A stretch of 32,971 bases of DNA. Source: Candidatus Izemoplasmatales bacterium. Its GTDB lineage: Bacteria; Bacillota_I; Bacilli_A; Izemoplasmatales; Hujiaoplasmataceae. Shown here in pieces: positions 174-23,395 of the stretch. Both the position numbers and the translations under genes were made by a program. Position 1 is the stretch's first letter; every line of letters starts with the position of its first letter. The notes beneath the pieces were generated by a model. It did no database searches. It was not told the origin of the DNA and saw only the letters and a program-made list of their open reading frames with translations. The DNA is taken from assembly GCA_028697025.1 (NCBI GenBank), contig JAQVFZ010000005.1, forward strand, positions 1-32,971, given 5' to 3'.

Positions 174-1085
174 TCATTTTAAAATATCGGTTATTCCTTT
201 ATCATTTAAGTAATTTTTGTAGTTTATTGTTTTTGTGTTTTTCATAATTCTAATGTGTAAATCTTCTATCATTTTATTTTTAGCTATAATATGCTGCCGA
301 TGATTTTCAATATTTTCAATTGAAAGATGATTATATCGATAGACAAAGAAATTTAAGTAATGCTGTATGTTTTTAATTCTATAACCACAATGTTTGAATA
401 AGTATCGTTTCAAATTACTATGAAATGAATCAATATAGTCCGTCGAATACAATTCAGTTGGCTCTCTTCGTGGATCTATGAGTTCACATTTATATTGATT
501 CATAAATTGCTTCTGTTTCGGATTACCATCATGGACAAATCTTTCAACTGATTCAATATTAATATTACATAGTCTTTTGTAATCTTCAGGCATGGCCATG
601 GCTCGTGAAGAAATTTTTGCGATACACGTACCACCTAAATCAATGAGTGTAATCACACATAACTGATTGAAAGATAATCCACGATAATCTAGCCCATCTT
701 GTCTGATCAATTTATATTTCTTATCTCGAATTCTAATAAAAGTTTCATCAATGAGAATGATTCCATTTAATCTTACTTCGTCTTGATAATTCATAAGCGA
801 ATGAAAGACGAGATATCGATAGTAATGGGCGGTTTTTATATCTATTTTTAAGTTTCTTGCTATGACACTTAATGTGACATCATCTACCATATATCCAATG
901 AACTTTTTAAATGTGTGTTCGCTTGTTTTTAGATACTTAATGGGAGAGTTATTTAAAATAAAAGTTTTCTTACAGGACTTACAATAATATCTTTGTACTT
1001 GTTTTTTTGATAAACCATTCTTAATTAATTGCTGTTCGGTTCCACATTTAGGACAAATGTATAATTTGGTCATAAGACGTTCCAT
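174..1085 (-). CDS. IS1595/ISXO2-like transposase (the ORF track extends to a TTG at 1130; ATG 1085 or 1073 is more likely)
   Basis: N-terminal zinc ribbon CPKCG…CKSCKKTF, HTH-like segment, acidic motifs IDETF and VHDGNP, C-terminal HSNLKRYL…NFFVYRYNH resembling DDE transposases of the ISXO2 type. Confidence 0.8.
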   Translation of the reverse strand: MERLMTKLYICPKCGTEQQLIKNGLSKKQVQRYYCKSCKKTFILNNSPIKYLKTSEHTFKKFIGYMVDDVTLSVIARNLKIDIKTAHYYRYLVFHSLMNYQDEVRLNGIILIDETFIRIRDKKYKLIRQDGLDYRGLSFNQLCVITLIDLGGTCIAKISSRAMAMPEDYKRLCNINIESVERFVHDGNPKQKQFMNQYKCELIDPRREPTELYSTDYIDSFHSNLKRYLFKHCGYRIKNIQHYLNFFVYRYNHLSIENIENHRQHIIAKNKMIEDLHIRIMKNTKTINYKNYLNDKGITDILK

Positions 1086-1086
1086 A

Positions 1087-1180
1087 ACGAGAAAAGCGAG
1101 CACTCTACCCCAAGGAACGTCGCCAAACAATTCGAGGGTAAAGTACTCGCTTTTCTCGTCCCTTATTAGAATTGTTTGGC
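1087..1180 (-). other. interleaved inverted repeats (A-B-A'-B' order) in the transposase leader
   Basis: A 1087-1103 pairs with A' 1143-1159 (one wobble); B 1122-1133 pairs exactly with B' 1169-1180. Confidence 0.75.
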
Positions 1181-4798: not shown

Positions 4799-6058
4799 TC
4801 ACTCTAAGAACTGATATTTTTCGTTGAAAACTTTAATAAACACCGTTACGACCAACAAGTCAGCGCTACCGCCAAAACTCAAGTTATTTGCGATACAATA
4901 ATCGTTTATTTTCATGACATCCTCAGTGTTATTTAAATCCAATCCCGCGAACATTTCTTTTATACACAAATACTTTTCATATGAACCAGCTCTTTGATAC
5001 AAGGAAGTATCTTCACTATTGATGATAAGAAAAATCAAAGTTTGAATTTTTGAATAAGTGGATAAATCAAATAGCTTCTTTAAGGCTTCTTTTACTGTTG
5101 AAAAGCCTGACAATGCTTCTCCTCTTATGCCTTTAATAGAGTGTTCTTGAAATGCCTTGTCACCATAACTAGCACTAGAGTAATCATAATCCAAAAAGAG
5201 TTGTTTTGCAAATGATTGGCTTATATCAAAAATTGTTCTCTTTTCATATCTAGATAATTTATATCCTATACTTGAAATTATTAATCCTAAATTAAAAATT
5301 AAGCCCTTATAGGCGTTGACACCTTGAGTAGCTTTAAACATAGCTGTTTCAGCGCTTTTTCCTATACTTTGAAGATTTCTGATTAAGTCAATTTCCTTCA
5401 AATTTTTAAATGTTTCAAAAAACATCTCAATCAGATAAGGCATTATTGCTTCTTTTGCTTTTATCATCAATTCATAGTTCATATCTGGATGACTTCCCGA
5501 TGTATAGGGAGTTACCAAACCAAATTTGGGATCGAGTTCTAACTCTTCCATTATACTCTGATTTAAAATTTGAGAAATGCTATTTTCATAAAACATTTTA
5601 GCTTTCTTATCTATTATATCTAATATCTCTAAGTCAGTATGTCTTTGATTCCTCATGCAAAAAGAAGCTTGATTATCGCAGATTATGCATTTTCTTTTTT
5701 GTTCCCTAATCGTTACAGTTCCATATCTATCATATACATCCAAGTCAATAAACCTACCCAACTTATGATGTTCTTCGATTGATATCATTTGTCTTTTTAT
5801 CGATTTGGCCTCAAATCCATTTAATAAAATTAAAACAAAAGGACCATCACCATTTTGATGATAGTCGTAAGTAACGGATGGAAATGATTTAAGGATAAAA
5901 GAAAAAGCGTTGATCAAAAGATAAGATAAATAATTGTTCTTTTCTGTGCCGGGCATGTTTGCTTTAATGCTGACGACAGTTTCATAAAAGTTTAAGTACT
6001 CTTCTATAAGTTTTGATCTTTTCTCTCTTCCCGACAGTATGTCATCTAAAATATTCAT
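4799..6058 (-). CDS. citXG: fused CitX (apo-citrate lyase phosphoribosyl-dephospho-CoA transferase) - CitG (triphosphoribosyl-dephospho-CoA synthase)
   Basis: N-terminal CitX signature (GRFIDLDVYDRYGTVTIREQKRKCIICDNQASFCMRNQRH) followed by CitG-like helical domain with TPYTSGSHPDMNYELM and GGSADLL. Confidence 0.85.
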   Translation of the reverse strand: MNILDDILSGREKRSKLIEEYLNFYETVVSIKANMPGTEKNNYLSYLLINAFSFILKSFPSVTYDYHQNGDGPFVLILLNGFEAKSIKRQMISIEEHHKLGRFIDLDVYDRYGTVTIREQKRKCIICDNQASFCMRNQRHTDLEILDIIDKKAKMFYENSISQILNQSIMEELELDPKFGLVTPYTSGSHPDMNYELMIKAKEAIMPYLIEMFFETFKNLKEIDLIRNLQSIGKSAETAMFKATQGVNAYKGLIFNLGLIISSIGYKLSRYEKRTIFDISQSFAKQLFLDYDYSSASYGDKAFQEHSIKGIRGEALSGFSTVKEALKKLFDLSTYSKIQTLIFLIINSEDTSLYQRAGSYEKYLCIKEMFAGLDLNNTEDVMKINDYCIANNLSFGGSADLLVVTVFIKVFNEKYQFLE

Positions 6059-13294: not shown

Positions 13295-13828
13295 TTAAAC
13301 GTTGAAAGAAAGCACGAATAGATAGTCACTCAATCTGTTTAAATATTTCTTTGCCGATTCCAAATCTTCTCTTTTTGTATAATCGACAAACGCATTTAGT
13401 TGTCTTTCGGCTTTTCTTGCCAAGGCACGAGCATAATCAACGTGAGCCCCAGGCTCAGTTTTTTCGCTTCCAGGCAAATAAAATCTACCTTCCAAAGGTT
13501 TTTTTAATAAGAAATCTTGGATTTTTACTTCCAATAATTCGACATCTTCAGGCTTAATCTGTATCAAAATATTATACAAATCCGAATCATAGTCACTGGC
13601 AACAAGAGAATTTATGTTTTGTAAATGCATTTGAATTTCTTTTATGAATTCAATATGTGAGTGATGGTAAGCTATGCCTAAATAGGAACTGAATTCATCC
13701 ATTGTTCCTAGTGTTTCAAATAAAATATGTGATTTCCTATATATTCTGTTTTCGAAATCTTTAGAATTACCCGAATCACCAAATTTGGTTGCTATTTGAT
13801 CTATTTTGTCAATTGGCATTATTTTCAC
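13295..13828 (-). CDS. PduO-type ATP:cob(I)alamin adenosyltransferase
   Basis: 177 aa; KFGDSG near the N-terminus, ETLGTMDEFSSYLG, FYLPGSEKTEPGAHVDYARALARKAER, LNRLSDYLFVLS. Confidence 0.9.
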   Translation of the reverse strand: MKIMPIDKIDQIATKFGDSGNSKDFENRIYRKSHILFETLGTMDEFSSYLGIAYHHSHIEFIKEIQMHLQNINSLVASDYDSDLYNILIQIKPEDVELLEVKIQDFLLKKPLEGRFYLPGSEKTEPGAHVDYARALARKAERQLNAFVDYTKREDLESAKKYLNRLSDYLFVLSFNV

Positions 13829-14555
13829 CTCTTTTTCGATTTAATAGTTCCGTAATCGCAAAAGTTGCAACATCCTCCGCAAAACTTCCCGGTCCAAATC
13901 CAGCATCATACCCTAATTCTTTTGCTAATTCATGAGTAATCCTTGCCCCGCCGGCAACAAGTATTACTTTATCTCTCATTCCTTCAGATTCCAATAGCTC
14001 CACAAGTTCAATCATGTTTTTTAGATGAACTTCCTTTTGTGTCACGGTTTGAGAAACCAAAAGCACATCAGCGTTTTTATCACGAGCAAATTTTATAAAA
14101 TCTTCATTCAAAACTTGAGAGCCTAAATTATAAGCGTCGATGCCTTGATATCTTTCAAGACCATAATGACCGGCAAAACCTTTCATGTTCATAATCGCAT
14201 CAATACCAACCGTATGTGCATCAGTACCTGTAGAAGCTCCAACAAATACAATATTTCGGTCGAACTCGTCTTTGATAATTTTTTCTATCTCTTCTCGGTC
14301 CAGAGCGTGATTGGTTATTTCTTCGACGTGAATTCTATCAAAATCTATGGCGGCTTTTACGCTACCGTAAACAACATAGAAACTGAAACCTTCGCTCAAA
14401 TTTTCAGTATGGACAACGGAAGGATCAATTATACCCATTTCTTTTGCAATTTCTTTTGCAGCTGCTATTCCTTTGGCCGATTTTGGAACAGGCAAAGTAA
14501 AACTAACCTGAACCTTGCCATCATTGAGCGTATCGCCATATGGTTTAATTTTCAT
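13809..14555 (-). CDS. kamE: lysine 5,6-aminomutase beta subunit
   Basis: 248 aa; B12-binding TGTDAHTVGIDAIMN, LLVSQTVTQKEVHLKNM. Confidence 0.94.
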   Translation of the reverse strand: MKIKPYGDTLNDGKVQVSFTLPVPKSAKGIAAAKEIAKEMGIIDPSVVHTENLSEGFSFYVVYGSVKAAIDFDRIHVEEITNHALDREEIEKIIKDEFDRNIVFVGASTGTDAHTVGIDAIMNMKGFAGHYGLERYQGIDAYNLGSQVLNEDFIKFARDKNADVLLVSQTVTQKEVHLKNMIELVELLESEGMRDKVILVAGGARITHELAKELGYDAGFGPGSFAEDVATFAITELLNRKRGENNAN

Positions 14556-16110
14556 TGAAGGATTCCTCCATTTTTTCCAGAACTACATTGACATAATTCT
14601 TATTCTTTCTAAAAACTCCGGATAATCCTTTTCCCCCATTTTCACTTCTTTTTGTTTGAGCGAAAACACCTTTGGCCAAGCTATTGAACATTCCGTCTTC
14701 AGCTATCTGTTTTAGCAGTTTTTCGGCAGAATTCAAAACTTCAACAGCTCGCTTTTGAATGATACCTTCTGGTTTATAACTAATTTCATCACCTAAAGAT
14801 TTCATTGATTTCTGTATCATTTTTGCATTCTTGATTGCTAAATAACGATCTGATAAATATGGTGTATGTATAGCCTCGGTCATCATACCCAAGAGGTGAA
14901 TTGATTGGCCGGTGATTGTCGTAACCATGTTGAACATCACATTTTGTTGATAAGCTTTAAAGATATTGCCGTTGATATGTTTTGTCGGCGGCATATACTT
15001 AAGTGGCGCATCAGGAAAGATCTCTCTAGCCAGTTGTGCTTGCGATAATTCCAACAAAAAGCTATCTTCAACTTCTGGATCAATTTCAAAAGCATGCCCT
15101 AAACCCATTAATTTACTTGGTAAATGAGCTTTTTTTGCAAAAGCTTCATTTATGAATTGCGAAGCAGTCACTGTGTGAGCTTCCTCAACGGCATCGGATG
15201 TTGTGAGATAATTATCTTCACCCGTATTGATGATTATTCCGGCATATGCATTTATAAGACGGGAAAAGTATTGATCCACGAATGTTCTTTGCATATTGAT
15301 GTCACGGAAAATTATACCGTACATGCTATCATTCAACAGCACATCAAGTCTTTCCAAGGCACCCATGGCGGCTATTTCTGGCATACAAAGTCCTGAAGCG
15401 TAATTAACTAAATAAATATATCTACCTAGTTTAAAACTCACCTCATCCAAAGCTTTTCTCATAATTTTAAAATTTTCTTGGGTGGCAAATGTCCCACCAA
15501 AACCTTCAGTGGTTTTGCCGTACGGTACATAGTCCAGCAATGATTGTCCAGTAGATCTTATTACCGCAATTATGTCGGCTCCAGCCTCGGCTGCTGAAAC
15601 AGCTTGTATAACATCTTCATCAATATTTCCCGTAGCCACAATCACGTAAATATCGGTTTTTTCACGAGGAAATTTTGTCAAAAAGTCAGTTCTTTTAGCC
15701 TTATTTTCCAAAATTCTTTTCAAACCGGAATCATAGTAAGGCTTAAGAATATTGAATGTCGCATCTTGATCTATAATTTCATGACCACAGATATTTACCT
15801 CTTCATTTTTATAGGCGATCAAAAAATCGGATAAGCTTAATCCCGAACTTTTTAAAGCACTTGCCAGGTAAGTGCTGACGCCTAAAGATATATTTCCGTT
15901 TTTTACAATATCATCGACTATTCTATTTGGCAGCGGAACTTGGAATTCATCAGTGCCATCAACGCCCAAAAGCCTGAGAGTCGCTCGTTCAACGCTGACA
16001 GTTGTATGTTGATCTATGAAACTCTGGACGTCGTTTGCAATTATTTTTGCATATTTACGACAAGACTCAACTACACTTTGATTTATATTTAGTTTATTCA
16101 TCATGTTCAC
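14545..16110 (-). CDS. kamD: lysine 5,6-aminomutase alpha subunit
   Basis: 521 aa; RATLRLLGVDG, AVIRSTGQSLLDYVPYGKTTEGFGGTFATQENF. Confidence 0.95.
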   Translation of the reverse strand: MNMMNKLNINQSVVESCRKYAKIIANDVQSFIDQHTTVSVERATLRLLGVDGTDEFQVPLPNRIVDDIVKNGNISLGVSTYLASALKSSGLSLSDFLIAYKNEEVNICGHEIIDQDATFNILKPYYDSGLKRILENKAKRTDFLTKFPREKTDIYVIVATGNIDEDVIQAVSAAEAGADIIAVIRSTGQSLLDYVPYGKTTEGFGGTFATQENFKIMRKALDEVSFKLGRYIYLVNYASGLCMPEIAAMGALERLDVLLNDSMYGIIFRDINMQRTFVDQYFSRLINAYAGIIINTGEDNYLTTSDAVEEAHTVTASQFINEAFAKKAHLPSKLMGLGHAFEIDPEVEDSFLLELSQAQLAREIFPDAPLKYMPPTKHINGNIFKAYQQNVMFNMVTTITGQSIHLLGMMTEAIHTPYLSDRYLAIKNAKMIQKSMKSLGDEISYKPEGIIQKRAVEVLNSAEKLLKQIAEDGMFNSLAKGVFAQTKRSENGGKGLSGVFRKNKNYVNVVLEKMEESFNEN

Positions 16111-17095
16111 CTTCTAACACATTAAATACTTCTCTATTTAAACTCGTATTCAATTTATTCTTGAAATCCTCATTATCAAATTCGTAGCCCAGTGGCGACA
16201 CCGGATTGTAACAAACTAAAGACACATTAAGGGGATTGATTACATAAAGTTGATTTTCCAGCTGAAATAGTTTTTTCAATAAGTTGTGGTGCACTTGGAT
16301 ATTAATTGGTGAATCCACAATAATGTCAAACTTGCACCTTCTTCTTTCAAGAATCAATCTTTCCACAAATTTATTGGTTAAGGATTTAGGAAAATAAACT
16401 TTGGATATATTACTGAAATCTAAATTAAAAAAGCTATCCACATTACCTATTATACTCGAATATTCAAGATTTATCATCATACTGTCATTATTGATTAAAC
16501 AGATTTTATCGCCAAAACAGAAGTCTTTAAGGTCATGATACTTTAGAGAAAACTTTTTATGCAAAATAACAGCATCATTAACCACCACATCGATGTCACG
16601 GGAATAATTCGCTCCTACTACCAGGATTGTAGCTTGTGTAATCTTGGCAAAAACATGACGTGAAAAAGCACCATCAATTATAATTTTTTCTAACTGATAG
16701 TTTTTCAGCTCTGATATCAGTTTTGCCATATCTGTTACTTTCGCAGGCCCGGCAACTAAAGCTTTGCCCCTAGAATTAATCTTAACTATTACCACATTTC
16801 CAATAGATGTAGTTATATCTAAAGTCTTGATTATTTCGTAGTCGCAAGTAAACATTGTCAACGTGTCATAAGCCGTAGCGACCAAATAACCTTGTTTAAC
16901 AAGTATTTGCGGCTTTTCTAAATTGGTCACCTGGTCTAGTTCTTCTCCATCCAACCCTATAGACGTAATTGCCACATTCGAACTATCATAATGATTTAAA
17001 TACTCATTCATAACGGTAGTTTTACCCGCATTTTTTGTATTTCCGACAATACTGATGATTTGATAATCTTTTAGTAATTCGATTATTCTTTTGAT
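16094..17095 (-). CDS. kamB: KamB-like P-loop accessory protein of the lysine aminomutase cluster (true start upstream of the first ATG at 17011; ATC 17095 or ATA 17086 are candidates)
   Basis: The 305-aa ATG ORF extends in frame upstream as …NIKRIIELLKDYQIISIVGNTKNAGKTTV-MNEYL…, placing Walker A GNTKNAGKTT at 17044-17015; sits between kamA and kamD. Confidence 0.7.
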   Translation of the reverse strand: MKRIIELLKDYQIISIVGNTKNAGKTTVMNEYLNHYDSSNVAITSIGLDGEELDQVTNLEKPQILVKQGYLVATAYDTLTMFTCDYEIIKTLDITTSIGNVVIVKINSRGKALVAGPAKVTDMAKLISELKNYQLEKIIIDGAFSRHVFAKITQATILVVGANYSRDIDVVVNDAVILHKKFSLKYHDLKDFCFGDKICLINNDSMMINLEYSSIIGNVDSFFNLDFSNISKVYFPKSLTNKFVERLILERRRCKFDIIVDSPINIQVHHNLLKKLFQLENQLYVINPLNVSLVCYNPVSPLGYEFDNEDFKNKLNTSLNREVFNVLEGEHDE

Positions 17096-18330
17096 GTTCT
17101 TTTCCTTCTTTCCAAATCTTTCGGCTCCAGAGAAATCTTCTTTCCTGCCAGCAAACCACTTACACCATTCGCATCTTCATAAGGTTCTTTATTGACATAA
17201 TTATTTGGTTCGGAATATGTTGAAATCACGCCTTCGTAATTTCTAAGCACTATTTTTCCAGGCGCTTGTGATATTACGTAATTTGGCATGACCGGTATTT
17301 TACCGCCGCCTCCAGGGGCATCAACAACAAAAGTCGGCACACAATACCCAGATGTGTGTCCTCTCAGTCCCTCGATAATTTCTATACCTTTCGATACCGG
17401 TGTACGGAAATGTTCAATACCCAAAGAAAGATCGCATTGGTAGATATAATAAGGTCTGACCCTTATATATGCCAATCTTTGAACCAATTTTTTCATGATT
17501 TCAACTGAATCATTTATTCCTCTTAATAATACAGATTGATTACCTAAAGGCACGCCCGCATCAGCTAATTTCTCCATAGCGGCTTTAGATTCGATTGTAA
17601 TTTCATCATAATGATTAAAATGCGTGTTAAGCCAGATTGGATGATATTTTTTTAACATATTTACAAAATCATCCGTTATTCTTTGTGGCATAACTACCGG
17701 CGTTCTAGTTCCTAATCGAATTACTTCCACATGGTCTATTTCTCTTAATCTCTTGATTATTCCTTCGAGAATTTCATCGCTGACCAACAGCGCATCCCCA
17801 CCCGATAGCAAAACATCTCTAATTTCAGGGTGTTTGCTGATATAATCAATAGCTAAGTCTATTCTATCTTGAGGCATTTTTTGATCTTTTTGACCCGCAA
17901 ACCTTCTTCTAGTACAGTGACGACAATACATGGAACACATATCCGTGATCAAGAATAAAACTCTATCAGGATAACGATGCGTCAATCCAGGAACCGGTGA
18001 ATCAGTATCTTCAGCTAAAGGATCAAGCATATCATTTTCACCGATATTCATCTCATAAATGCTTGGAATTGCTTGTTTTCTAATCGGGCAATCAATATTA
18101 TCTGGGTCGATTAAACAAAGGTAATATGGGGTTATGGCCATTCTAAATTTGGAAAGAACGCTAAAAATATCATTTTTTTCTTTTTGAGACAAAGGAATAT
18201 ACTTTTCCAAGTCTTCAACAGTTTTTATTCTGTTTCTTACTTGCCAGCGCCAATCGGACCAATCGGTGTCATTTACTTCAGGGAAATACTTGGCCTTTCT
18301 TTCCAAATAGCTGTCGTTAGTGATTTTCAT
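17083..18330 (-). CDS. kamA: lysine 2,3-aminomutase
   Basis: 415 aa radical SAM enzyme with CSMYCRHCTRRR, DVLLSGGDALL, VDAPGGGGKIPV. Confidence 0.97.
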   Translation of the reverse strand: MKITNDSYLERKAKYFPEVNDTDWSDWRWQVRNRIKTVEDLEKYIPLSQKEKNDIFSVLSKFRMAITPYYLCLIDPDNIDCPIRKQAIPSIYEMNIGENDMLDPLAEDTDSPVPGLTHRYPDRVLFLITDMCSMYCRHCTRRRFAGQKDQKMPQDRIDLAIDYISKHPEIRDVLLSGGDALLVSDEILEGIIKRLREIDHVEVIRLGTRTPVVMPQRITDDFVNMLKKYHPIWLNTHFNHYDEITIESKAAMEKLADAGVPLGNQSVLLRGINDSVEIMKKLVQRLAYIRVRPYYIYQCDLSLGIEHFRTPVSKGIEIIEGLRGHTSGYCVPTFVVDAPGGGGKIPVMPNYVISQAPGKIVLRNYEGVISTYSEPNNYVNKEPYEDANGVSGLLAGKKISLEPKDLERRKRTSKE

Positions 18331-19367
18331 TATTTACCACTTCCAAATCTTTCTTGGAAAATTTCATATAATTCTTTGGATTCTCTTAGTAAGTTCAATG
18401 TAAATTCTGCATGATCTTTGGTATAACCATTACCAATAATCATTAAAGCTTCGGAAGCTATTCCCTCAGCTCCTAAAGCGGCTTTGGTAAAAGAGGTAGC
18501 CATTGAGAAGAAGTAAATGGTTCCTTTACTTTTTGTTGGTAAAATGGATGTCATTTCTGTGTTTGGAACATTAACCACATTTATTGTCACATCCGCCATA
18601 TCAGGCGCAACTTCCTGCACTTTGTGATAAATATCCATTGGTTTGGTGGCGTCACCAACGATAATGTGATCGCAAGCACCTAGTTTTTCCAAATCATGTC
18701 GGCTTCTATCAGAGTGAATTATCGCAATAACCTTACCGTTTTTACCAGCACTTTTTTTAGCTTGGTAGGCACATAGTAAGCCTGATTTTCCACCTGCTCC
18801 TAAAATCAAGACTGTATCGTTTTTCTTGACCAATTTTTCAACTTGAGCTGCAGCGCCCGCTACATCAAGAGCACTTAAAACTATATCCGCTGGTAAATCA
18901 TTAGGAATTTGTGCATAGATGCCAGTTTCAAATAAAATGGCTTGACCAATGATGTTTACTTGGTCCTTAGTCAAATCGATACTTAATATCTTTTCTATCT
19001 TTAGAGGTGTCAATGACAATGAAACTAAAGAGGTAATCTTGTCTCCCGGCTTGACTTTTACTTTTAGATTTTTTCCGACTTCTTTTATTCTACCCAAAAA
19101 CATTCCGCCACTTCCAGTAACTGGATTTTGCATCTTACCCTTATTGTTTACGATGTTTTCAATCATTTCTTTCATCTTGTCGGTATCAGAATTGCATACA
19201 CTTTTTATTTGTGTGAAAGAAGCTGAATCGATATTAAGAGTATCTACATCTACCAATATTTCATTGTCTTGGCAAATCATTTCATTGTTAATTTTTTCTG
19301 CAGTTTGTGGTAAGGATCCTACCGGCGAAATTACTCTGTGTGTACCATATTTACATAAGTTATTCAT
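18330..19367 (-). CDS. kdd: L-erythro-3,5-diaminohexanoate dehydrogenase
   Basis: 345 aa; YGTHRVISPVGSLPQTAEKI, NPVTGSGGMFLG, LILGAGGKSG nucleotide-binding motif; operon position. Confidence 0.93.
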   Translation of the reverse strand: MNNLCKYGTHRVISPVGSLPQTAEKINNEMICQDNEILVDVDTLNIDSASFTQIKSVCNSDTDKMKEMIENIVNNKGKMQNPVTGSGGMFLGRIKEVGKNLKVKVKPGDKITSLVSLSLTPLKIEKILSIDLTKDQVNIIGQAILFETGIYAQIPNDLPADIVLSALDVAGAAAQVEKLVKKNDTVLILGAGGKSGLLCAYQAKKSAGKNGKVIAIIHSDRSRHDLEKLGACDHIIVGDATKPMDIYHKVQEVAPDMADVTINVVNVPNTEMTSILPTKSKGTIYFFSMATSFTKAALGAEGIASEALMIIGNGYTKDHAEFTLNLLRESKELYEIFQERFGSGK

Positions 19368-19368
19368 T

Positions 19369-20196
19369 TTATTTTTCTCCCATTTTCAACATTTGTCTAG
19401 TTTCTTTTGGTGTAGCTATCTCACGATTATATTTTTTTGCCATTGCTACAATTTTTTCTACAAGTTCTCTATTTGATTTTGCCAGAACACCTTTTTCAAT
19501 GTAAATATTGTCTTCAAGTCCAACCCTGACATGACCTCCATGCTTGATTGAGTGTTCTGCTAATGAAAATTCATATCTACCAATTCCGGCAACACTGTAT
19601 GTCGCTCCTGCAGGTAAACTTTCTTTTAAAAAGATGAAATCTCTTTCCTCTCCCGTCATTCCTCCGTTTACACCTAAAACAAAGCTATAATGAAGATGAC
19701 CTTTAATAATACCTTTTTTTATTAATCTCAACGTAGTATCAATATGCCCTTTTTCAAAACATTCCATTTCATACATGACACCTAGTTCATTCATTTTATT
19801 GGCAAAATAAATGATATCATTTTCCGTGTTTATGAAAATCTCGTCACCACCAAAATTCAAAGTGCCACAATCAAGCGTCGCCATCTCAGGCTTAATGTTC
19901 AAGACGTCAGATCTCTCTTCTCTGCTCATTCCAACCGCACCGCCGGTAGAGACTTGAACTATCAACTCCGGGCATTTGTCTTTGATGGCTTCTACTATTT
20001 CTCGGTACCTATCTTTATTTTGTGTTGGTTTTCCATCATCATATCTGGCATGCAAATGGATAATCGAAGCTCCAGCCAAATAAGCTTGATAAGCCGCTTC
20101 GACCATTTCTTCAATAGTATAAGGAACAGCAGGGTTATGTTCTTTTGTGACTTCTGCGCCAGAAATTGCGCATGTAATAATCAATTTATCCATCAT
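19369..20196 (-). CDS. kce: 3-keto-5-aminohexanoate cleavage enzyme (start trimmed from 20220)
   Basis: [44 protein letters not shown] motifs of the BKACE/DUF849 family. Confidence 0.95.
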
Positions 20197-20572
20197 GTCT
20201 TTGCAACCCCTTAGGAACAATGCATGTGCCTATAGCTTTTGTAGTCAAAAGCCGATCTTTTAAAACGTCGCAAGCACTAGGAGCAATATCCGGTCTTGCA
20301 GATATTATTTTATAACAGAAAAATTCCATTTTTCTCGAAGTATTCCCAGCTTCAACAATTTCAGCTTCTATTTCCAAAAAATCCCCTGCATAAACTGGAG
20401 CTAAAAAATCTATTGATTCGTAAGCTCTAAAGAGCCCCTCATCTCCGTCCATTCTAATTAAAAGTTCAGTTGCGGCATCACCGAATAAACCTAAAATTCT
20501 TGCGCCGTCAACTAAGTTTCCTCCATAATGAGCATCATGGTTGGACATTCTAAGTTTTAATGTCGTTTTCAT
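20186..20572 (-). CDS. kal: 3-aminobutyryl-CoA ammonia-lyase
   Basis: 128 aa hot-dog protein; [30 protein letters not shown]; operon position. Confidence 0.92.
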
Positions 20573-21216
20573 TAATTTACTCCTTTCATTTTTTGAACAT
20601 CATTTATAATCAAATCAGCTTCAGTCGCTTTTATTACATCTTCTATAGAATAATCAGGGTGAACTTCCAACAAATGGAGACCATCTTTCTCCACTTTCAT
20701 CACTGCCATCTCAGTAACTATTAGATTTGCCTGATTCGCTGCGGTAAGAGGTAAGCTACACTTCTTTAAAACTTTGGATTGACCATTATTTGTGTGTTTT
20801 AATGCAATTATGACTTTTTTAGCTCCTGTAACCAAATCCATAGCTCCGCCCATACCAGGAACCTTTTTACCCGGAATAATCCACGAAGCAATTGAACCCT
20901 CTTGATCAACTTCCAATGCGCCAAGGACGGTAACGTCAATGTGTCCACCTCGAATAAAGGTAAAGGATGTAACGGTATCGATAAAAGCTCCACCCTTTTT
21001 TATAGTCGCTTTAACTCCTCCCGCATTAACAATATTGGTTTCTTCTTCAGTCAAAGGTCCAAGCCCTATAATTCCGTTTTCCGCTTGAAAAGTTACGTGT
21101 TTGCCTTCAGGCACGTAATCAGCTACCATAGTTGGAATACCGATGCCCAGATTAACCAAATCACCATCGCATAATTCTAATGCTATTCTTGAAGCTATTA
21201 TTTCTTTTTCGTTCAT
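20572..21216 (-). CDS. atoA: butyrate-acetoacetate CoA-transferase subunit B (start trimmed from 21243)
   Basis: [33 protein letters not shown] catalytic Glu motif. Confidence 0.93.
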
Positions 21217-21220
21217 AAGA

Positions 21221-21862
21221 TTAATCCTCCAATATGTAATCAACGAATGGGAAAGGGGTTATGACATCTTCAGGGTCAATTTCACTGACTCTTTTTACCG
21301 CCTCGACAACAACAATTTCCGCAGCCGTAGCCATTACAGGGTTAAAATTTCTCATAGTTTGTGAATACTTTAGGTTGCCATTGTCATCAGCCATAGCACC
21401 ACCAATTAAAGCCATATCAGCTCCAAGCGGTTCTTCCAATAAATATTTCTGTCCTTTGACTTCTAAAATTTGTTTTCCATTTTCGACAATGGTTTGTAAA
21501 CCGGTAGGAGTAAGTATACCACCTAAACCAGCTCCAAAAGCCCTGATTCTCTCTGCTAAAGTCCCTTGCGGAACAAGTTCCACTTCAATTTTGGATTCCT
21601 GCATTAATTTGCCGACATAAGGATTGGTACCGATATGGGAAGCGATTAGTTTTTTTACTTGATTGTTAACTATTAATCTTCCGACCCCTTTATCTTCAAA
21701 ACCCCCATCGTTACAGATAATTGTCAAATCCTTAACTTTGGATTCAATAACTAAGTCGATTAGTTTTTCCGGTGTTCCGTTAGTCAAAAATCCACCTACA
21801 GAAATAGTCATCTCATCTTTGAGCAGATTGATAAATTCATTCTTTTTTATAAATTTCTTCAT
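21221..21862 (-). CDS. atoD: butyrate-acetoacetate CoA-transferase subunit A
   Basis: 213 aa; MTISVGGFLTNGTPEKLID, ASHIGTNP, ELVPQGTLAERIRA. Confidence 0.93.
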   Translation of the reverse strand: MKKFIKKNEFINLLKDEMTISVGGFLTNGTPEKLIDLVIESKVKDLTIICNDGGFEDKGVGRLIVNNQVKKLIASHIGTNPYVGKLMQESKIEVELVPQGTLAERIRAFGAGLGGILTPTGLQTIVENGKQILEVKGQKYLLEEPLGADMALIGGAMADDNGNLKYSQTMRNFNPVMATAAEIVVVEAVKRVSEIDPEDVITPFPFVDYILED

Positions 21863-21865
21863 ATT

Positions 21866-22288
21866 TTACACCTTCCTCGGCGGCATGATTTCTGCTTCGC
21901 CAATGATGACGACGTCATTATTTTGGTTTTTAGCCACGCAATCAAAAACCACGCGATTTCTGTCAGTCATCAATTCTTTTACGATAACCGTTGCGGTTAT
22001 CTCATCGCCAAAATAAACAGGTTTAGTGAATTTTAAAGACTGTTTTGTATAGATGCTACCTAATCCCGGCAACTGAACTCCGAATAGTGAACTAAACAGC
22101 GAACCAACCAACATTCCGTGAACAATTTGTTTTTTAAATATTGTTTTTTCTGCATAAGCTTTATCCACATGCGCCGGATTAAAATCGGTTGAAATTCTGG
22201 CAAAATCCAAAACATCCGTCTCATTAAAACATTTCTTTGTTTCGGCTTTGTCTCCAACTTTGATCTCTTCGATAGTAAAACTTTTCAT
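21866..22288 (-). CDS. MaoC-like / (R)-specific enoyl-CoA hydratase family
   Basis: 140 aa; FARISTDFNPAHVDKAYAEKTIFKKQIVHGML hydratase-2 motif, LGSIYTKQSLKFTKPVYFGD. Confidence 0.88.
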   Translation of the reverse strand: MKSFTIEEIKVGDKAETKKCFNETDVLDFARISTDFNPAHVDKAYAEKTIFKKQIVHGMLVGSLFSSLFGVQLPGLGSIYTKQSLKFTKPVYFGDEITATVIVKELMTDRNRVVFDCVAKNQNNDVVIIGEAEIMPPRKV

Positions 22289-22303: not shown

Positions 22304-22349
22304 TTTATAAAAATAAAAGAGCCATTATATTATAAAATATAACAGCTCT
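22304..22349 (-). terminator. riboswitch-linked intrinsic terminator (14-bp stem, U-rich tail)
   Basis: AGAGCUGUUAUAUU-UUAU-AAUAUAAUGGCUCU followed by UUUAUUUUUAU on the minus strand, upstream of the RBS aaaggaggag. Confidence 0.85.
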
Positions 22350-22515
22350 CCATTAGTTCAAATGGCAGTATTCAAACTGTCTGTCTAAATACCAAGACTT
22401 TGACTTATAGACTAATCAAATCTTTCGGCGAAACATTCCTTCTTAAACCTGTATCCGTCCAAAATAAAAATGAGATTTAATACCAATATTTCGCGCCTCT
22501 GTGTGTATTCAATTA
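22345..22515 (-). ncRNA. lysine riboswitch (L-box/LYS element) aptamer
   Basis: Minus strand contains AGAGGCGCG (22500-22492), CGCCGAAAG (22430-22422), ACTGCCATT…AATGGAGAGCT (22369-22345) with P5 CCATT-tgaact-AATGG and a P3-like pair AAGATTTGA/TCAAAGTCTT, in the order of the LYS consensus. Confidence 0.9.
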
Positions 22516-22522
22516 CATAGTA

Positions 22523-22636: not shown

Positions 22637-23395
22637 ATGGAGGTTGACATGTTAGCTGTAATTACGGGAGCTTCATCCGGTATTGGAAGAGAACTTGCAC
22701 TGAGATTAGCGGAAAGAAAATACGATTTAATCTTAATAGCGAGAAGAACGGAAAGATTGCTGGAAATTAGTAATTTATTAAAAAACATTGATATAAAAGT
22801 TGAAATTTTGCCCATGGATTTAACCGATTTAGACGAGTGCAAGAATGTGCTAAATACTTTCAAAAACAGAAAAATCGATTTGTTCGTTAACAATGCTGGA
22901 TTCGGTCTTTATGGTGCATCACTTGACAATGACACTGACAAAGAGTTTCAAATGCTGGATTTGAACATTAAAACTGTTCATTATCTCACAAAGGAAATAT
23001 CAAAAATAATGAGTCGTGGTACAATTATAAATATAAGTTCGATGGCAGCGTTTTTGCCAACTCCTCTTCTCGCCAGTTATGCGGCAAGTAAATCATATGT
23101 TTACAATTATTCAATGGCATTGGCATATGAACTGAAACAGAATAAAGTGCCAATAAACATAATGACTGTTTGCCCTGGTCCAGTTAAAACCGAGTTTAAC
23201 GAAGTGGCCAATGCTAGCCCAAAAATGAAAGGTTTATCTGTCGAAAAGTGTGTTGATAGCATCTTAAAAGGGTTGGATAAAAACAAAACTCTTGTAATCC
23301 CAAGCTTCAAGATGAAAATGTTGCGATTTATGTTAAGATTCAGCCCAACAAAACTTTTACTAAAAGTTTCTTACAAAATTCAAAGTAAGAGATGA
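22637..23395 (+). CDS. SDR-family NAD(P)-dependent oxidoreductase (ATG at 22649 also possible)
   Basis: TGASSGIGRELA, VNNAGFG, YAASKSYVYNYS motifs. Confidence 0.9.
   Translation: MEVDMLAVITGASSGIGRELALRLAERKYDLILIARRTERLLEISNLLKNIDIKVEILPMDLTDLDECKNVLNTFKNRKIDLFVNNAGFGLYGASLDNDTDKEFQMLDLNIKTVHYLTKEISKIMSRGTIINISSMAAFLPTPLLASYAASKSYVYNYSMALAYELKQNKVPINIMTVCPGPVKTEFNEVANASPKMKGLSVEKCVDSILKGLDKNKTLVIPSFKMKMLRFMLRFSPTKLLLKVSYKIQSKR

Follow-up and report, generated by a model that had tools for sequence, protein, structure and literature searches.

The window analysed here is the whole of a 32,971-nucleotide (nt) stretch of Candidatus Izemoplasmatales bacterium (GenBank assembly GCA_028697025.1, contig JAQVFZ010000005.1, positions 1 to 32,971), and the element under study is a lysine riboswitch (LYS element) placed before a lysine fermentation operon on the minus strand. 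All leader and operon features lie on that strand, and leader coordinates are given 5' to 3'. The aptamer (22509-22335) was matched to RF00168 at full length (model positions 1-182) with 74.5 bits against a gathering score of 30 and an E value of 6.9e-18, and was the sole LYS element detected in the genome assembly (84.8% complete). Upstream lies a sigma-70-type promoter (22551-22523) consisting of TTGACA (22551-22546), a 17-nt spacer and TATAAT (22528-22523), with 12/12 consensus positions; it scored best among 11 kb scanned, and its -10 hexamer is separated by 13 nt from the start of the RF00168 match. An earlier note, made from the letters of this DNA alone, had described a full LYS-type aptamer just after a consensus promoter and proposed a covariance-model check. 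The match was far above the gathering score, and the architecture given in the note stood, while its end coordinates were a few nt too generous. The junction nucleotides AGAGG, GCCGAA, UGG, CUG.CA and G.GCU were all found in the aptamer. Between P2 and P2a a loop E / sarcin-ricin motif is conserved in most lysine riboswitches and is not required by the model; at this position the window aptamer has a shorter internal loop variant, GGUA replacing AGUA.

P1 in the window consists of four contiguous base pairs (bp) between ACAG (22502-22499) and CUGU (22345-22342). All four nucleotides of the 3' strand sit inside the 5' arm of a terminator, in which AGAGCUGUUAUAUU (22349-22336) is paired with AAUAUAAUGGCUCU (22331-22318) over 14 bp (16 with two G-U pairs) around the loop UUAU, followed by the U-rich tail UUUAUUUUU (22317-22309); the terminator pairing across P1 includes two G-U wobbles. 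P1 and the terminator are mutually exclusive in the window. The doubling of the aptamer 3' end as the 5' arm of a 14-bp terminator, and the competition of the ACAG/CUGU pairing with that terminator for a shared strand, had both been claimed in the earlier note and were confirmed by sequence and folding. A chance overlap was ruled out by shuffling the downstream bases 5000 times with the aptamer end fixed, none of the shuffles equalling the observed score of the P1-swallowing stem. Translational control was set aside because the Shine-Dalgarno sequence AGGAGGAG (22303-22296) lies outside the terminator.

The first gene of the operon encodes a MaoC-type hydratase (21866-22288; PF01575, 2e-21), followed by coenzyme A (CoA)-transferase subunits A (CtfA, 21221-21862; PF01144, and TIGR02429 over its cut-off) and B (CtfB, 20572-21243; TIGR02428 over its cut-off). 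The next products were all assigned by profiles over their cut-offs: Kal, 3-aminobutyryl-CoA ammonia lyase (20186-20572; NF052388), Kce, 3-keto-5-aminohexanoate cleavage enzyme (19369-20220; NF052387), Kdd, L-erythro-3,5-diaminohexanoate dehydrogenase (18330-19367; NF052381), KamA, lysine 2,3-aminomutase (17083-18330; TIGR03820), KamB, the lysine 5,6-aminomutase reactivase subunit (16094-17011; NF052386), KamD, lysine 5,6-aminomutase alpha (14545-16110; NF052384), and KamE, the B12-binding beta subunit (13809-14555; NF052385). The probable last gene encodes a PduO-like cobalamin adenosyltransferase (13295-13828; TIGR00636, 2.4e-24, below its cut-off). By these profile assignments the operon encodes the 3,5-diaminohexanoate pathway of lysine fermentation, which bears out the lysine-degradation role first proposed for it. 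Near relatives of Kce were found in metagenome-assembled genomes (MAGs) labelled Bacillota, Tenericutes and Candidatus Izemoplasmatales, and in strain zrk2.

When P1 was enforced, the window RNA folded into P1-P5 with a 6-bp apical hairpin coexisting; otherwise the minimum-energy fold was the terminator state, and a separate antiterminator was not found in folds of growing window transcripts. Folding with and without P1 had been suggested in the earlier note. The element very probably acts on the lysine fermentation operon as a lysine-responsive ON riboswitch at the level of transcription, because the P1 3' strand lies within the terminator arm, so that bound P1 would exclude the terminator; the lysine-dependent step of this switch is predicted from sequence and folding. 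The lysC riboswitch of Bacillus subtilis belongs to the same aptamer family (RF00168) and differs in having a separate terminator and antiterminator, lysine turning the gene OFF. An ordinary OFF switch of this kind, in which lysine-bound P1 would free the terminator and an antiterminator would form in the unbound state, is highly improbable in the window, where the terminator includes the P1 3' strand and P1 is unable to free it, where the folds of growing transcripts gave no alternative antiterminator, and where such a switch would close lysine breakdown when lysine is abundant.

Relatives within the order Izemoplasmatales were compared next to the window. LYS elements were present in 50/61 relatives and Kce in 56/90, and 72 LYS elements of the order were examined, 36 before the lysine fermentation operon (catabolic) and 36 before other genes. 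Sampled non-catabolic targets were amino-acid binding proteins, LysA-type decarboxylases and M20-type peptidases; one binding protein and one LysA-type decarboxylase were identified also by Pfam, and the M20 type by inspection. In a looser scan the terminator arm entered the aptamer in 36/36 catabolic elements (median 16 nt; at least 10 nt in 33), whereas 35 of the 36 others were without overlap and had a separate downstream hairpin instead; the lone overlapping non-catabolic element had an A-U hairpin preceding the usual hairpin. A stricter scan, in which P1 was required inside a stem with a U-run, was passed by 34/36 catabolic elements versus 1/36 others. Judged from these sequences, a convincing P1-overlapping terminator is found in 0/36 non-catabolic elements of the order. 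The promoter is kept in catabolic leaders across the order.

Beyond Izemoplasmatales, kal/kce genes were preceded by LYS elements in two genomes of Caloramator, in six further genomes of its phylum (two of the six with tandem LYS pairs) and in three MAGs whose labels are Clostridiales, Clostridia and Christensenella. The P1-overlapping hairpin was present in 13/13 catabolic elements from Clostridia, and 12/13 passed the stricter scan, the exception being Caloramator element L160, where the hairpin is present and the U-run is weak. P1 extends over 12 bp in the Caloramator examples, where its 5' strand is a repeat of the terminator 3' arm; on the sequence this reads as a clear strand-exchange design. 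In the catabolic class, both the P1 5' strand and the terminator 3' arm remain complementary to the P1 3' strand, and the stem shows G-C/A-U/G-U exchanges. Among controls from the same phylum sample, 2/20 non-catabolic elements overlapped in the stricter scan (4/20 were not anchorable). As a separate observation, both overlapping controls, L233 (G482) and L234 (G302), precede an ATP-type phosphoenolpyruvate carboxykinase gene (pckA), an unexpected ON-type target. The tandem pairs, L208 (313-757) and L209 (reverse strand) in genomes G408 and G451, precede kdd...kal-kce-kamA operons, and each of their aptamers has its own P1-overlapping terminator; such a serial arrangement of ON switches might make the response sharper. 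Among the loci scanned outside the order, no LYS match was found within 5 kb of Kce in 12 Bacteroidetes-type loci or in those of Cetobacterium/Fusobacteriaceae, Treponema and Desulfobacterales.

For aptamer comparison, 49 catabolic aptamers (36 of the order and 13 Clostridia elements) were set against 56 others, many of them from the same genomes. The predicted lysine-ON logic of the earlier note is strongly favoured by the comparative evidence. In a tree built without P1 and the J5/1 end, the 49 catabolic aptamers fell on one side of a single branch and the 56 others opposite with support 85/96, and the lineage claim leans on this tree, which is built on short sequence and has some long branches; with the P2/P2a internal loop also cut, support was 100/97, for the 93/105 rows that could be so cut. 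The P2/P2a internal loop reads GGUA in 45/49 catabolic aptamers, in Izemoplasmatales and Clostridia alike, and AGUA in 52/56 others, and in the Rfam alignments the catabolic loop is shortened by 1-2 nt. It is conceivable, and put forward tentatively as a rather unlikely reading, that the catabolic elements form a distinct aptamer lineage that spread with the lysine fermentation genes in Izemoplasmatales and Clostridia, and that the altered loop adjusts the ON switch in its affinity, its kinetics or the ligand it selects (for example for beta-lysine or millimolar lysine).

The same grouping, which sets the catabolic aptamers apart even from others of the same genomes, and the loop change found in nearly all of them would also suit an aptamer that responds to a different ligand, such as beta-lysine, D-lysine or some other intermediate of the pathway, and is turned ON by it. 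This is improbable, given that AGAGG and G.GCU are kept in 49/49 catabolic aptamers and GCCGAA in 47/49, that RF00168 scores in the class reach 113 bits, and that the P2/P2a loop lies peripheral to the ligand pocket in solved lysine riboswitches.

In the window the terminator fold is more stable than the P1-enforced fold by 10.1 kcal/mol; the catabolic class has a median difference of 10.6 and other LYS elements 1.6. Several points weigh against the lysine-ON switch. Such folding energies ignore tertiary contacts and kinetics, and with a P1 of just 4 bp the terminator would always win unless tertiary stabilisation were strong. Two of the 36 catabolic elements of the order fail the stricter scan, and in two Izemoplasmatales genomes (G011 and G030) the overlap in the looser scan is only 8-9 nt. 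Because AGUA, the canonical motif, is altered in the P2/P2a internal loop, affinity could differ from that of known lysine aptamers. The greater stability of the terminator fold could also be taken to mean that the hairpin acts as a constitutive attenuator beside a vestigial aptamer, an explanation to which very little probability is given: the aptamer persists in 36 genomes of the order and in 13 Clostridia elements, as does the complementarity of the P1 3' strand to both its partners, whereas a vestige would decay. A terminator preference of about 10 kcal/mol without ligand is instead as expected of a kinetic ON switch like pbuE. In the pbuE adenine switch, strand invasion through P1 starts from a hairpin that forms in the bound and unbound states alike, and is prevented by ligand (PMC7707468). 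The B. subtilis pbuE element resembles the window element as an ON switch whose terminator forms at the expense of P1 by strand exchange, starting from a hairpin that the ligand-bound form also permits; aptamer and ligand differ, and the pbuE terminator also consumes P3, whereas that of the window consumes P1 and J5/1.

For the lysine-ON switch the following course is proposed. RNA polymerase would start shortly before the aptamer and, as sequence and homology indicate, make the five-helix lysine aptamer first. With lysine bound, P1 (ACAG/CUGU) would be held and the polymerase would read into the operon. Without lysine, a 6-bp A-U hairpin just 3' of P1 would nucleate and act as a toehold, and its 3' arm would invade P1 and the adjacent J5/1 core, giving a terminator of 14-16 bp with a U-rich tail. 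The competition is supported by sequence and folding, and the kinetics are presumed by analogy with pbuE. High lysine would thus open the lysine-consuming pathway, and a cre-like operator on the -35 hexamer (described below) probably brings in repression as well whenever better carbon sources are available. In this way a small-genome, uncultured anaerobe probably times lysine fermentation to conditions where lysine is present and, perhaps, a better carbon source absent.

The operator resembles a catabolite-responsive element (cre), has the sequence TGACAACGCTTACA (22550-22537) and is fused to the -35 hexamer, and carbon catabolite control is predicted from it. The cre box consensus is TGNAANCGNTTNCA, and the window operator matches it at 9/10 fixed positions. 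With up to one substitution, TTGACAACGCTTWCA covers the -35 hexamer in 34/34 catabolic leaders with enough upstream sequence and in 0/36 other LYS leaders; TTGACAACGCTTWCA occurs as a single copy in the genome. The core AACGCTTACA has only two occurrences in the window, where 0.16 matches are expected by chance: one at the -35 hexamer of the lysine operon and one at 13211-13202 (minus strand), just upstream of the glutamate mutase genes. The best CcpA-like LacI-family protein in the genome scored 240 bits, under the TIGR01481 equivalog cut-off of 442, and this regulator's own gene has a perfect cre-like palindrome 25 nt upstream. Repression of the lysine operon by the CcpA-like protein is predicted from these sites.

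The idea of ON-type lysine riboswitches before catabolic genes is not new and has already been predicted (PMC5584792; PMC2258182). The statement in the earlier note that LYS elements had been noted near lysine catabolic genes was correct. Elements upstream of kal/kce in Clostridium sticklandii, Fusobacterium nucleatum and Thermoanaerobacter were called positive regulators (PMC5584792), and certain ON-logic lysine riboswitches are stated to bury terminator pieces (PMC2258182). The former share with the present set the aptamer family, the pathway and the predicted positive regulation; they differ in that the Izemoplasmatales operon opens with MaoC and CtfAB, in that the overlap is documented here over 49 elements with controls, and in the cre-like operator on the promoter. 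New are the host order, the systematic ON/OFF contrast, the aptamer variant common to the catabolic set and the conserved cre-like operator. A literature search, with most subscription papers outside its reach, found predictions only and no in vitro test of a natural ON-type lysine riboswitch. The set offers 49 ON candidates next to 56 controls, many of them from the same genomes, which allows opposite logic to be compared within a single aptamer family, and the prediction is easily tested.

Around the operon, an SDR-family gene (22637-23395, plus strand) is divergent from it, and in G050 and G039 (elements L079 and L087) an extra coding sequence, with an SDR-like start by inspection, lies between the riboswitch and MaoC. 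Beyond PduO lies a second gene set, for glutamate fermentation by the methylaspartate route. Past the glutamate mutase genes, a fused CitX-CitG protein (4799-6058, minus strand) is encoded downstream of citrate-lyase-like genes, and a weak IS1595-like transposase match (174-1130, minus strand) lies near the contig end.
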